This document shows, piece after piece, positions 14,577 through 32,140 of a stretch of DNA of 33,249 nucleotides. The translations under genes and the position numbers were made by a program. The stretch comes from Negativicutes bacterium (GTDB lineage: Bacteria > Bacillota > Negativicutes > Anaeromusales > Anaeromusaceae): the NCBI GenBank assembly GCA_009929485.1, contig SAAJ01000034.1, positions 1-33,249 on the forward strand, in the 5' to 3' direction. The notes under the pieces are model-generated. The model did not search any database. It was not told the DNA's origin and worked only from the letters and a program-made list of their open reading frames with translations. Position 1 is the stretch's first letter, and the number at the start of each line of letters is the position of its first letter.

Positions 14577-14598
14577 GACTTCAATTTCATAATATATG

Positions 14599-14772
14599 AC
14601 TGAGGTGCCGCTAATTGCGGAGAATAGGGAAGTCGGAGCGGCTTAATCAAAGGCCGTGTACGCGCGGGCCCGCCACTGTACCGGAGAGAGCTTGCCAGAT
14701 GCCACTTGCGCCGAAAAGTTGCAGGGAAGGCGGCAATGTATCGATGAACCGGGAGTCAGGAGACCTGCCTCA
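14599..14772 (+). ncRNA. Cobalamin (B12) riboswitch
   Basis: A class of RNA that binds adenosyl- or methylcobamides and lowers expression of downstream genes. Diagnostic blocks occur in the right order: GAGGTGCCGC near 14602, AGGGAAGTCGG near 14626, GGGCCCGCCACTGTACCGG near 14668, GCCAGATGCCACT near 14694 and the B12 box AGTCAGGAGACCTGCC at 14754-14769. It is followed by an intrinsic terminator and then the arsA gene, so control is probably by transcription termination when the cobamide is plentiful. Confidence 0.94.
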
Positions 14773-14796
14773 GATCAGGAAGACCTTGTTGGATAC

Positions 14797-14871: not shown

Positions 14872-15924
14872 ATGATGAATTTATTGCAAGAAACTATAGC
14901 GAAAATTGAAAAGCCCGATGCGGCAGCGTATGAAAGTGTCAAAAAGAGCTTGGCTCAGACCGTATACCCTTCGGGAATGCTTGGGCGGTTGCCGGAGATG
15001 GCGGCGACCTATGCGGCTGCCACAGGGAACCCCAAACCACGGGAATTGAAGCCATGCATGGTGATTGCTTGTGCGGATCATGGGGTGGCGCGGCGTTCTG
15101 TCAGCGCTTACCCCATAGAGACAACGGCGCAGATGACCATTAACTATGTGGCTTCTAAGGGGGCCAGCGCCAATGCATTTGCTAATTTTTGCGGTGCTGA
15201 TATGGTGGTAGTTGATGCGGGCGTAGCGGTGGATCTGCCGTCTTTCCCAGGGCTTTGGGAGCGGAAGATCGCCTATGGTACGGAAGATTTTACCCAGGGG
15301 CCGGCCATGACGCAGGAGCAGGCTGTAAAAGCATTGGAAATTGGCATTTCGATTGTGCAGAAAAAAGTGCAGGAAGGATATCGCTGCTTTACTTTAGGTG
15401 AAATGGGCATTGGCAACACAACCAGCAGTGCTGCCATTGTGGCGGCTATATCCGGCGAGGACCCGCTGCAAACCACCGGGCGGGGCACGGGAATTTCCGA
15501 TCAGCGTTTGGCGGACAAGCGCCAATATGTCCGGCAAGCGCTAACGGTCAATCAACCCCAGGGGACTGACGGCTTGGATGTTTTACGCAAGGTGGGCGGC
15601 TTGGAACTCGGCGTGCTGGCAGGTGTGGTGCTGGGGGCTGCGGCGCATAAGTGCCTGGTAATTGTTGACGGGATGAATACGACGGCGGCGGCCTTAGTGG
15701 CGCAAGGCATTCATGCGGAGAGTGCCGGTTATTTACTGGCGTCCCATTTGTCCGGCGAACCGGCCCATCGTATTGCCTTGCGCCAACTGGAGTTAAAGGC
15801 GTGCGTGGATTTGGGAATTCGTCTTGGCGAGGCGATTGGAGCCTCGTTAGTGGTGGATATGCTGCAGATGGTTTTAGCTATGCTGCAAGACGTGTACGCA
15901 AGTGCAGAGGAGGGGTTGGCGTAA
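14872..15924 (+). CDS. arsA: CobT-family phosphoribosyltransferase, ArsA-like (lower-ligand activation)
   Basis: Member of the nicotinate-nucleotide:base phosphoribosyltransferase family, which attaches ribose-phosphate to the lower ligand of a cobamide. It has 350 residues. The family loop GEMGIGNTTSSAA near residue 175 and the catalytic-base segment RLGEAIGA (Glu about 319) are intact, as are ADHGVARRSVSAYP and DFTQGPAMTQEQ. A second ATG at 14875 has better ribosome-site spacing. The next gene is a divergent second copy. In Sporomusa ovata such a tandem pair (ArsA, ArsB) forms a heterodimer that can use phenol and p-cresol; that precedent is the reason for the symbol. An ordinary CobT remains possible. 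Confidence 0.8.
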   Translation: MMNLLQETIAKIEKPDAAAYESVKKSLAQTVYPSGMLGRLPEMAATYAAATGNPKPRELKPCMVIACADHGVARRSVSAYPIETTAQMTINYVASKGASANAFANFCGADMVVVDAGVAVDLPSFPGLWERKIAYGTEDFTQGPAMTQEQAVKALEIGISIVQKKVQEGYRCFTLGEMGIGNTTSSAAIVAAISGEDPLQTTGRGTGISDQRLADKRQYVRQALTVNQPQGTDGLDVLRKVGGLELGVLAGVVLGAAAHKCLVIVDGMNTTAAALVAQGIHAESAGYLLASHLSGEPAHRIALRQLELKACVDLGIRLGEAIGASLVVDMLQMVLAMLQDVYASAEEGLA

Positions 15925-27311: not shown

Positions 27312-28781
27312 ATGCATTTGTGGCAGCAATCCTTGCACCAATTACATACCCGCCTGGCTCAGCGCGAAGTGACGTCTGAGGAAATTACGCGTTCCGTGCT
27401 AGAGCGCGTAGGGGCGGTAGAAAACGATGTGAAAGCCTATGTGACTCGTCTTGATGAGGCGGCGTTGGCTCAGGCGAAAGCGGTAGACGCGAAAATAGCC
27501 CAAGGAGGCGCGATATCTCCTTTGGCAGGTATTCCCAGCGCGATTAAGGATAATATGTGCACCAAAGGCGTGCGTACGACCTGCTCGTCGCGCATGCTGG
27601 AGCGCTTTATCCCTCCTTATGATGCGACGGTCATGAAAAAACTGGCGGCGCAGGATTTTGTCATGGTGGGCAAGGCCAATATGGATGAATTCGCTATGGG
27701 CGGCTCTACGGAAAACTCCGCGTTTTTTCCTACGCACAATCCCTGGAACTTGGCGGCAGTTCCCGGCGGCTCCAGCGGCGGCTCGGCCGCAGCCGTTGCG
27801 GCAGGCGAAGCCATTTGGGCTCTTGGCTCGGATACAGGCGGCTCCATTCGTCAACCGGCGGCGTACTGCGGTATTGTAGGCTTGAAACCTACCTATGGTC
27901 TAGTGTCTCGTTTTGGCTTGGTAGCATTTGCCTCTTCGTTGGATCAGATCGGACCGTTGACGCGCAATGTCACGGACTGTGCGATAGTGCTCAACGCCAT
28001 TGCCGGGCACGATCCCATGGACTCAACGTCCATTAACCAAGAAGCGCCTGACTATACCAAGGCGCTGGTGGAAGATATTCGAGGCTTGAAAGTGGGCATT
28101 CCCAAAGAATACTTTGTGAAAGGGATGGACCCGGAAGTAGAGAAGGCGGTGCGCGCCTCTATCGCCCGCCTCGAAGAACTGGGCGCTACTTGTGTGGAAG
28201 TGTCCATGCCGCATACGGAATATGCTTTGACTGCTTATTACCTGATTGCTCCGGCGGAAGCCAGCTCCAATTTGGCTCGCTATGACGGCGTCAGCTTTGG
28301 TCATCGCAGCGCCGAGGGCAATGACATTGTCAGCATGTATAAGAAGACCCGCAGCGAGGCTTTCGGGGCGGAAGTAAAACGCCGCATTATGCTGGGCACC
28401 TATGCCCTAAGCTCCGGTTATTACGACGCCTACTATCTGAAAGCGCTCAAAGTTCGTACCCTGGTCAAGCAAGACTTTGACAAGGCTTTTGAAAAAGTAG
28501 ACGTGCTGGTGACTCCTACTGCGCCGACGACGGCCTTCAAAATTGGTGAAAAGAGCGGCGATCCGCTCTCTATGTACTTGCAGGACGTCTGCACCATCCC
28601 CGTGAACTTGGCTGGCGTTCCCGGTATTTCCGTTCCCTGCGGCTTTGCTCAGGGCATGCCTGTGGGCTTGCAGTTTATCGGTAAGCCCCTGGCGGAAGAA
28701 ACGCTGCTGCGTGTGGCCTATACCTTTGAACAAAGCCATGATTATCACAAGCGCCTGGCGCCGCTCGGGGAGGGTAAGTGA
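27312..28781 (+). CDS. gatA: Asp-tRNA(Asn)/Glu-tRNA(Gln) amidotransferase subunit A
   Basis: The glutaminase subunit, an amidase-signature enzyme of about 489 residues that releases ammonia from glutamine for transfer to misacylated tRNA. The Lys-Ser-Ser triad is intact: K79 in [11 protein letters not shown], Ser in the [14 protein letters not shown] loop near 155, and Ser in [11 protein letters not shown] near 178. An ATG at 27306 is in frame, but the GAAAGGGG site gives better spacing to 27312. The stop overlaps the gatB start (TGATG). Confidence 0.96.
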
Positions 28782-30220
28782 TGAAATACGAAACAGTTAT
28801 TGGTCTGGAAATCCATGTGGAGCTCAAGACCAAGTCCAAGATTTTCTGCGGTTGCAGCACCGAGTTCGGCTGCGGTCAAAATACCAATGTTTGTCCAGTG
28901 TGCCTTGGCTTGCCTGGCGTGCTGCCGGTCATCAATGAAAAAGTAGTGGAATACGCTATTAAAGCGGGTTTGGCGCTGAATTGCAGCATTGCATCTTTTA
29001 GCAAGTTTGACCGTAAAAACTACTACTATCCGGATTTGCCGAAAAACTTCCAAACTTCGCAGTACGATTTGCCCATCGTTGGGATGGGGCATCTGGACGT
29101 TGAGGTGGAAGGCGAGACCAAACGCATCGGCATTACTCGGATTCATATGGAAGAAGACGCAGGTAAACTGGTGCATTCCGGCAGTACCATTACCAGCTCG
29201 GATTCGGCTCTTGTCGATTACAATCGTACCGGCGTGCCGTTGATTGAAATCGTGTCGGAACCGGATATTTCTTCTCCGGCGGAAGCTAAAGCGTATCTGG
29301 AAAAAATTAAAACCATTCTGGAATACTTGGATGTTTCCGACTGCAAAATGGAAGAGGGCAGTCTGCGCTGCGATGCCAACATTTCCATTCGTCCGGTGGG
29401 CGCTAAGGAATTGGGTACGAAGACGGAGATTAAAAACCTCAATTCCTTCAAGGCTGTGCAGCGCGGTCTAGAATATGAAGTGGCTCGCCATATCGACGTC
29501 ATTGACGATGGCGGCCGCATTATTCAAGAAACCCGTACTTGGGATGACGCCAAAGGCATGACTCTTTCCATGCGCAGCAAGGAGCAGGCTCATGACTACC
29601 GGTATTTCCCGGAGCCGGATCTGGTGCCGATCGTCATTGCCCCGGAAAAGATCGAAGCCATTCGCGCTACCTTGCCGGAACTGCCTGATGCACGGCGGCA
29701 GCGTTTGATGGACGACCATGGCCTTCCGGCTTATGATGCATCCATTCTTACCTCTAGCCGAGCGCTGGCTGACTACTACGATGCCCTCGTAGCCGCGAAA
29801 GCCGATGCTAAAGTAGCGGCGAACTGGGTTATGGGCGAATTTGCCAAGCATTTGAATAGCTCCGAGTTCACTGTGGCAACCGCTCCGGTCAATCCGGTCG
29901 CGTTGGCGGGTTTGATTCAACTGCTGGACAAGGGAACCATCTCCGGTAAAATCGCTAAGGACGTCTTCCAGTTCATGTGGGAAAGCGGCAAAGACGCGGA
30001 AACCATCGTGAAGGAAAAAGGCTTGGTGCAGATTTCCGATACCGGCGCAGTAGACGCCATTGTGGAAGCAGTGATTGCCGCTAATCCTCAGCCGGTGGCT
30101 GACTTTAAAGCTGGCAAGCAAAACGCTTTGGGCTTCTTGGTAGGTCAGGTTATGAAGCAGTCGAAAGGCCGCGCCAACCCCGGCATGGTCAACGAAATGC
30201 TAAAGCAGAAGCTACAATAA
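28781..30220 (+). CDS. gatB: Asp-tRNA(Asn)/Glu-tRNA(Gln) amidotransferase subunit B
   Basis: The kinase and tRNA-binding subunit, 479 residues, which phosphorylates the misacylated tRNA and amidates it. The start [20 protein letters not shown] and zinc-binding cysteines (CGCSTEFG and CPVCLGLPG) are visible, then [19 protein letters not shown] and [11 protein letters not shown] from the active site. The C-terminal ~130 residues are the YqeY-like tRNA-binding domain. It is followed by a terminator. Confidence 0.97.
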
Positions 30221-30382: not shown

Positions 30383-30511
30383 AATGCACGAGGAGATTGC
30401 TTCGCCATCGCTCGCAAAGACCAAAGGTGGTTATAATGGCAATAACTTTGCTTGATATAGGAAAGCCAGCTTATCGCGTCATTGCGAGGAGCGGAGCGAC
30501 GCGGCAATCTC
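30383..30511. repeat. Palindromic GAGATTGC...GCAATCTC element
   Basis: The left end reads GAGATTGCTTCGCCATCGCT and the right end, in reverse, CGTCATTGCGAGGAGCGGAG, CGACGCGGCAATCTC. The ends are imperfect inverted repeats of each other over about 25-30 bases, separated by about 70 bases of unrelated sequence. The arm sequence resembles a short repeat that I recall as widely scattered in many unrelated bacterial genomes. No reading frame for a transposase is present. Confidence 0.6.
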
Positions 30512-30552
30512 TTTTGAAAAATTGATTCTCTGGTGTCGGCTCTTCTCTGGTG

Positions 30553-30678: not shown

Positions 30679-30707
30679 TTGACTTCATTTGTGGCGCGAT
30701 GTATACT
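30679..30707 (+). promoter_or_regulatory. Sigma-A-type promoter of the T-box-aroF unit
   Basis: TTGACT at 30679-30684, a 17-base spacer and TATACT at 30702-30707. Transcription would start near 30714, giving a leader of about 410 bases before the aroF start. Confidence 0.85.
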
Positions 30708-30729: not shown

Positions 30730-31082
30730 TGCGAAGAAGGAAAGAGTAACTTTTCTCAACTGTGCAGAGAGCGGATGGCTGGTGAAAATCCGACGGGGCG
30801 GAAAGGTGAAGTTCATTCCGGAGCAGCGGGCTGAAAGAATAGCGAGTAGGCTTGGCCGAGTTCCCGCGTTAAGGGATTTAAGTGGGCTGTTGTCAATAAG
30901 GGTGGTACCACGAGCGCAAGCTCGTCCCGGTTACTGCTTCTTTTTTATTTGCAAGCCAGAAGGGGTGGTACCGCGAGCGCAAGCTCGTCCCGGAGTAGCA
31001 TCCTTTTTTGTTTGTCAGCAGCCAAACAGGGTGGTACCGCGCGAGTCGCTCCTGAATTTTGGGAGCGGCTTTTTTCGTCCCT
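30730..31082 (+). ncRNA. T-box riboswitch with three antiterminator elements (tRNA-Phe type)
   Basis: A leader RNA that senses uncharged tRNA. Stem I signals are present (GCAGAGAGCGGATGGCTGGT with the following GAAAATCC), the specifier loop reads GAAGTTCATTCC with TTC (Phe) at 30812-30814, and the stem II region AGTAGGCTTGGCCGAGTTCC with CGCGTTA follows. Then a T-box antiterminator, GGG-TGGTACC-(A/G)CG...CGT-CCC, occurs three times, at 30900-30928, 30963-30991 and 31028-31082. Only the third encloses an intrinsic terminator (stem 31045-31052/31062-31069, T-run 31070-31075). The downstream gene is a DAHP synthase, which agrees with Phe control. Confidence 0.9.
31045..31075 (+). terminator. T-box regulated terminator
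   Basis: An 8-bp stem, GTCGCTCC against GGAGCGGC, with a 9-base loop and a run of six T. It is nested inside the third antiterminator element, so pairing of AGGG with CCCT (31028-31031/31079-31082) and formation of the terminator compete. Confidence 0.85.
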
Positions 31083-31126: not shown

Positions 31127-32140
31127 ATGGTTATTGTATTGACGCCCGGGGCTAAAGAAGAAGAGGTAGCGGTGTTGCGCGAGGTGCTGCAGGAAGCAGG
31201 CTGCGAAGTGTGGCCGACAAAAGGCGCATTTCAAGATATTTTGGGGCTTGTCGGCGAAACCCATAAGGTGGATCGGGAACAGGTCATGTCCTTCCGCTGC
31301 GTAGAAAAGGTATTGGCGGTTCAAGATCCTTATAAGAAAGCAAACCGACTGTTCCATCCGTTGGATACGGCGATTCGGGTAGGCAACAGTTGTATTGGCG
31401 GTGGCGGGCTCGCAGTGATTGCCGGACCTTGTTCGGTGGAAAGCGAGGAACAGATCGTCGGCATTGCCAAACAAGTGCAAGCTTCCGGCGCGACCTTCCT
31501 GAGAGGCGGCGCCTATAAACCCAGATCGTCACCGTATAGCTTCCAGGGAATGCAGGAAGAAGGTCTGGAGCTGCTGAAGCTGGCTCGGAAAGCAACGGGC
31601 TTGCCTATTGTGAGCGAGCTGGTTTCTACAGACCAATTGGACCGTTTCGTCGACGATGTCGATGTGATCCAAATCGGCACCCGTAACATGCAAAACTATG
31701 AATTGTTAAAAGCCGTAGGGGAAGTAAATAAGCCGGTGCTGCTCAAGCGCGGTCTGTCCTCTACCATTGAAGAATGGCTGATGTCGGCAGAATACATTAT
31801 GGCGGGCGGTAATGAGCAGGTCATTCTTTGTGAACGAGGCATTCGTACCTTTGAGACCTATACGCGTAATACCTTGGACTTGAGCGCTGTGTTGGCAGTC
31901 AAGCATTTGAGCCATCTGCCGGTAGTGGTGGATCCTAGCCATGCCGCTGGTATGTGGTGGATGGTGGAAGCGCTCTCCAAAGCGGCGGTGGCTGTCGGAG
32001 CAGACGGTCTGATGATTGAAGTTCACAATGAGCCGGAGCGAGCGCGCTGCGATGGCGCGCAGTCTTTGAAACCGGAGCGCTTTGACCGCCTGATGGGGCA
32101 ATTGCAACGGCTGTCTGCCTTAGAAGAAAGCGCTATGTAA
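31127..32140 (+). CDS. aroF: 3-deoxy-7-phosphoheptulonate (DAHP) synthase, type I-beta
   Basis: Condenses phosphoenolpyruvate and erythrose-4-phosphate in the first step of aromatic amino acid synthesis. The 337 residues begin with a ferredoxin-like regulatory domain of ~70 residues ([20 protein letters not shown]), as in the feedback-inhibited Thermotoga type. The TIM-barrel core has [39 protein letters not shown] and VVDPSHAAG; the metal ligand Cys in GPCS and the His in DPSHAAG are visible. AAGGAGG lies before the ATG. Control is by the upstream Phe-type T-box. Confidence 0.95.

Follow-up and report, generated by a model that had tools for sequence, protein, structure and literature searches.

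Duplicated terminator-antiterminator elements in T-boxes are said to have been described by Vitreschak et al. in 2008. Partially tandem T-boxes, in which one sensor is followed by at least two terminator/antiterminator units, have been mentioned as being of unexplained action and as an open question (PMC7583486). In the accessible text of two surveys of tandem riboswitches, the arrangements described are repeated aptamers, each with its own expression platform (PMC9481103, PMC12452182). The initial annotation of the leader considered here had stated that in tandem T-boxes it is usually the complete sensor that is repeated, which agrees with PMC12452182. Its view that repetition of the 3' part only is unusual also stands, although this arrangement was not new, the term "partially tandem" being already in use (PMC7583486).

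The leader lies within a 33,249-nucleotide stretch of DNA (the window), between gatB (28778 to 30220) and a forward-strand gene (31127 to 32140) encoding an aroF-type 3-deoxy-7-phosphoheptulonate (DAHP) synthase (NCBIfam NF006421, 481 bits; Pfam PF00793 and PF18152). A promoter-like sequence on the same strand (30679 to 30707; consensus scan, 10/12) consists of TTGACT (30679 to 30684) and TATACT (30702 to 30707) separated by 17 nt. Stem I, the stem II region, stem III, and antiterminator 1 are covered by one forward-strand match to Rfam family RF00230 (30725 to 30932; 116.6 bits, E 2e-25, against a cut-off of 93 bits), which includes a stem I with the specifier and apical T-loop motifs. The specifier codon is the Phe codon UUC (30812 to 30814, forward strand), as GAAG-UUC aligns in register with GAAA-UAC of the tyrS T-box of the same genome, on which the register was calibrated and where the codon reads UAC; the Phe specificity assigned initially is thereby borne out. 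The F-box CGUUA of stem IIA/B (30867 to 30871, forward strand; Rfam alignment) is present in a single copy. It is followed by the 5' strand and loop of stem III, GGCUGUUG (30885 to 30892, forward strand), and the stem III of the leader itself is merely GGC/GUC (30885 to 30887 with 30892 to 30894). The genome has two tRNA-Phe(GAA) genes with 3' ends ...GCACCA, so that the UGGU bulges, which occur three times in the leader and are complementary to the discriminator base plus CCA, fit the ACCA end of this tRNA. The RF00230 alignment revealed no second specifier in the leader, and the units lie 63 and 66 nt apart, which leaves no space for a stem I between them. A single RF00230 sensor is present, and not the two or more complete sensors of a fully tandem T-box; one stem I and one F-box are followed by three units, which is the partially tandem arrangement. 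By all testable features, the leader is identified from its sequence as a tRNA-Phe T-box upstream of aroF. Elsewhere in the window, a cobalamin riboswitch (14587 to 14786; RF00174, 89.4 bits) ends about 85 nt upstream of the ORF at 14872, and a GC-rich imperfect palindrome, CATTGCGAGGAGCGGAGCGACGCGGCAATC, lies between gatB and the leader (30480 to 30520) and may be a dispersed repeat.

Copies of GGGTGGTACC start at 30900, 30963, and 31029, with TGGTACC bulges from 30903, 30966, and 31032, and units 1 and 2 differ by a single base over about 31 nt. These positions and the near-identity are as first annotated, as is the count of three antiterminators to one stem I and one stem II region; the Rfam match covers the sensor and antiterminator 1. 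On the forward strand, antiterminator 1 (30900 to 30928; Rfam alignment and folding) is composed of GGG/CCC, the UGGUACC bulge, and an ACGAGC/GCUCGU upper helix, antiterminator 2 occupies 30963 to 30991 (sequence and folding), and antiterminator 3 (31027 to 31054), drawn from the sequence by analogy with units 1 and 2, has CAGG/CCUG and the UGGUACC bulge at 31032. The initial annotation assigned a terminator to unit 3 alone, and this was not confirmed. Terminator 1 (30900 to 30946, forward strand) pairs GGGUGGUACC (30900 to 30909) with GGUUACUGCUU (30929 to 30940) ahead of a U6 run (30941 to 30946), and terminator 2 (30960 to 31009, forward strand) pairs GGGUGGUACC (30963 to 30972) with a 3' arm at 30992 to 31003 ahead of a second U6 run (31004 to 31009). 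In a nearest-neighbor model that includes neither tRNA nor transcription kinetics, the minimum free energy (MFE) fold of unit 1, GGGUGGUACCACGAGC-GCAA-GCUCGU-CCC-GGUUACUGCUU, has -17.8 kcal/mol and ends one nucleotide ahead of the U6 run, and the unit 2 hairpin, with its bulge sequestered as in unit 1, has -21.3 kcal/mol (about -21 to -23). In both, GGG and UGGUACC pair with the sequence preceding the T-run, so that the bulge forms the 5' arm, the antiterminator CCC bulges out, and the hairpin stops 0 to 1 nt short of the T-run. The two T-runs had been located correctly, but they are not detached from a hairpin as had been claimed. When the spacers were shuffled, terminators 1 and 2 taken alone gave borderline values of P = 0.052 and P = 0.032, respectively. 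Terminator 3 (31043 to 31075, forward strand; U6 at 31070 to 31075) is of the canonical T-box type, leaves the bulge free, and is the only canonical terminator of the three, whereas the partially tandem T-boxes found outside the class have canonical terminators in both units. Terminator and antiterminator are mutually exclusive in the folds of all three units, and the leader is modeled as three serial terminator/antiterminator checkpoints behind one sensor, not as decoys.

The same two types of unit recur among relatives. Close-spaced T-box motifs were found in 37 of 100 genomes (this genome, its genus, and the same class), a number that exact motif patterns undercount, and a reversed-pattern control gave 0. 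In the class, the terminators of non-final units pair the bulge almost without exception, and those of final units are canonical; the bulge is left unpaired in final units and in nearly all single T-boxes. The duplex between the bulge arm and the spacer in non-final units of the class averages -13.7 kcal/mol, compared with -6.7 kcal/mol for shuffled spacers, with P ≤ 0.05 in 31 of 40 units and the remaining 9 of 40 missing this threshold. For non-final units with canonical terminators (24 from other classes and the trpD leader of this genome), the values are -4.6 compared with -5.7 kcal/mol, with P ≤ 0.05 in 0 of 25. The downstream genes checked in the class mostly encode either a sodium:solute symporter (PF00474), with a UUC specifier where aligned, or an ABC substrate-binding protein (PF04392); the non-final/final layout is a recurrent one at Phe/Tyr transporter leaders across the class. 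The ABC substrate-binding leader family has UUC in one genome (L045) and UAC in another (L055), a Phe/Tyr specifier switch in a tandem T-box. In this genome, which probably belongs to a diderm (Omp85 matches), there are 27 T-box matches, and both traits suggest that the class is probably Negativicutes. The T-boxes found at pheS and at a second aroF of this genome have single antiterminators. Another partially tandem leader of this genome (L007; contig C56, minus strand, units at 1732 and 1819) precedes a trpD-like gene and has a UGG specifier, unlike bulges (UGGUAAC and then UGGCACC), and two canonical terminators.

In each linker between units, about 5 nt ahead of the next GGG, lies a sequence that could replace the 3' strand of stem III, a complementarity that the initial annotation did not mention. 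Linker 2 (CAGCAGCC, 31016 to 31023, forward strand) forms 8 bp with GGCUGUUG and is separated from the GGG of unit 3 by 5 nt (AAACA). In a fold of 30880 to 31034 the resulting swap helix has a pairing probability of 0.98 to 1.0 and the old stem III does not form; none of 300 shuffled linkers matched it, and the pairing of linker 2 has P = 0.002. When the fold is extended through terminator 3, the global MFE structure differs and the swap helix is absent, and the swap is therefore predicted to be transient and cotranscriptional. Linker 1 (GCAAGCC, 30951 to 30957, forward strand) is a weaker partner, pairing with GGCU and UGU across a 2-nt bulge; this pairing is in the MFE fold of 30880 to 30968 and lies 5 nt before the GGG of unit 2, and taken alone it has P = 0.33. 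Comparable linker-stem III pairs occur at other loci, such as UGAUCUUA/UAAGAUCA (L036), AAUCUGAAC/GUUCAGGUU (L052), and GGUUGUAAAAC/GUUUUACAACC (L084). Across 20 mutually dissimilar loci, a subset that reduces but does not remove the kinship of species within families, linkers paired with their own stem III at -12.6 kcal/mol, compared with -6.7 kcal/mol (standard deviation, 0.6) for permuted pairs (0 of 10,000 permutations). Of five control windows placed further upstream, four gave no signal and the one at offset 140 gave P = 0.005, which points to some background relatedness. Most linker helices leave 5 nt between their end and the next GGG, as stem III does ahead of unit 1 in the window. 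We infer that stem III re-forms ahead of each successive unit, so that one docked tRNA is tested repeatedly.

These features, namely, three units, two terminator types, and a complementarity and spacing that are conserved, can be read from the sequences and their comparison. The leader probably acts as a transcriptional tRNA-Phe T-box in which one sensor (stems I and II) serves three serial checkpoints, with hand-over as stem III exchanges its 3' strand. One tRNA-Phe would stay docked on stem I, and as each unit is transcribed, the uncharged acceptor end (ACCA) would pair with the UGGU of the bulge and stabilize the antiterminator; without an uncharged acceptor end, the unit would fold into its own terminator. 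Because terminators 1 and 2 pair the bulge itself, the acceptor end would have to contend with the terminator for a single set of nucleotides. After the polymerase has moved on, the spent unit would collapse into its hairpin and free the acceptor end, and the 5' strand of stem III would re-pair with the next linker, looping out the spent unit. This re-pairing would set the next antiterminator at the normal stem III distance, so that the same docked tRNA is tested again. The expected outcome would be multiplied terminators, low leak, and a steeper response. Occupancy by one tRNA, the hand-over, the order of events, their kinetics, and the sharper response are all matters that we infer. The full scheme, a stepwise riboswitch in which one docked tRNA is proofread at up to three terminators through stem III strand exchange, with each spent antiterminator collapsing onto its bulge, is put forward tentatively, and our confidence in it is somewhat short of even.

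Three other explanations were weighed. The three cassettes might act on one tRNA through a flexible tether, the linker complementarity being a functionless by-product of partial duplication of stem III. Part of the complementarity could indeed have arisen when the 3' strand of stem III was duplicated, as some linkers resemble the 3' half of the old stem III plus spacer, and at L083 and L072 a complete stem III hairpin lies within the linker, which makes cross-pairing automatic. However, almost no in-class linker forms a stem III hairpin by itself, and the helices run 1 to 9 nt into the old stem III loop, which is not expected from copying of the 3' strand alone. Matched pairs also exceed permuted pairs by far at unrelated loci, and the distance to GGG is held close to 5 nt, all of which makes a functionless by-product unlikely. 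A related candidate, in which each linker has its own stem III, was rejected for nearly all class members and is true at some loci outside the class.

The suggestion of the initial annotation that units 1 and 2 lack terminators and serve as decoys or pause sites, or are relics, with regulation by unit 3 only, could draw on the differing unit number within the genus (3, 3, 3, and 2) and on the bulges in hairpins 1 and 2 of the window. It is either wrong or unsupported in the light of their own bulge-pairing terminators, a type conserved in the class (31 of 40). In both units the bulge, the helices, the terminator, and the T-run remain intact, and the three leaders with a unit 1 show no difference in it, so that decoys or decaying relics are very improbable. 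It might also be proposed that each unit binds a different tRNA-Phe, one held on stem I and the others through NCCA alone, and the identical UGGU in every bulge would suit such binding. From established T-box knowledge, however, a 4-bp NCCA contact without stem I/II anchoring is weak and not codon specific, and the leader offers no second specifier to additional tRNAs, which leaves this proposal with next to no credibility. Hand-over of one tRNA along three checkpoints is the reading that we retain.

The triple unit is present in three of the four genomes of the genus, namely, the source genome (G000), a second assembly of the species (G484), and a sister species (G001), so that the leader is kept among close relatives. 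The leader of a third species (G002) has two units, the 63 nt missing from it being precisely unit 1 and linker 1, and unit number is judged from these leaders to be evolving within the genus. A contig scan for triple units elsewhere, with a strict pattern that undercounts, gave 45 matches, mostly GC-rich repeats, and no T-box was recognized among the motif sequences listed. No tandem T-box was found within about 1.5 kb upstream of aroF at 27 orthologue loci inspected outside the genus, which speaks against an ancestral aroF leader; on this evidence, the leader seems to have been acquired in this genus. A phage origin of the leader found no match. The units are also not a dispersed repeat, a possibility that the initial annotation had named, because the close-spaced pattern is confined in this genome to the aroF leader and one other T-box leader. 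In another class, a DAHP synthase gene also has a partially tandem T-box with linker-stem III complementarity (L060), possibly of independent origin.

Compared with a canonical class I T-box (RF00230), the leader has the same specifier stem I, stem II region, stem III, UGGN antiterminator, intrinsic terminator, and downstream amino acid gene, but it differs in having three antiterminators per stem I, terminators 1 and 2 that pair the bulge, and linkers that hold alternative stem III strands. In the tandem (pseudo-cooperative) riboswitches treated in the accessible text of PMC9481103 and PMC12452182, serial expression platforms are likewise expected to sharpen the response, but each platform there has its own aptamer, whereas here one aptamer serves three platforms. 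A single aptamer that reads one ligand again was not found among the tandem types in the accessible text of PMC9481103, and if the proposed mechanism is true, the leader would be an RNA device whose single aptamer allows one ligand to be read several times. With the partially tandem T-boxes it shares one sensor and a repeated terminator/antiterminator part, and stem III complementarity is also seen in several such leaders outside the class (L060, L076, L084, and L087); it differs in its three units, bulge-sequestering non-final terminators, and proposed stem III re-pairing. Its plan is that of a partially tandem T-box, an already known kind, of which it is a variant, and its anatomy gives partially tandem T-boxes a concrete, testable mechanism.
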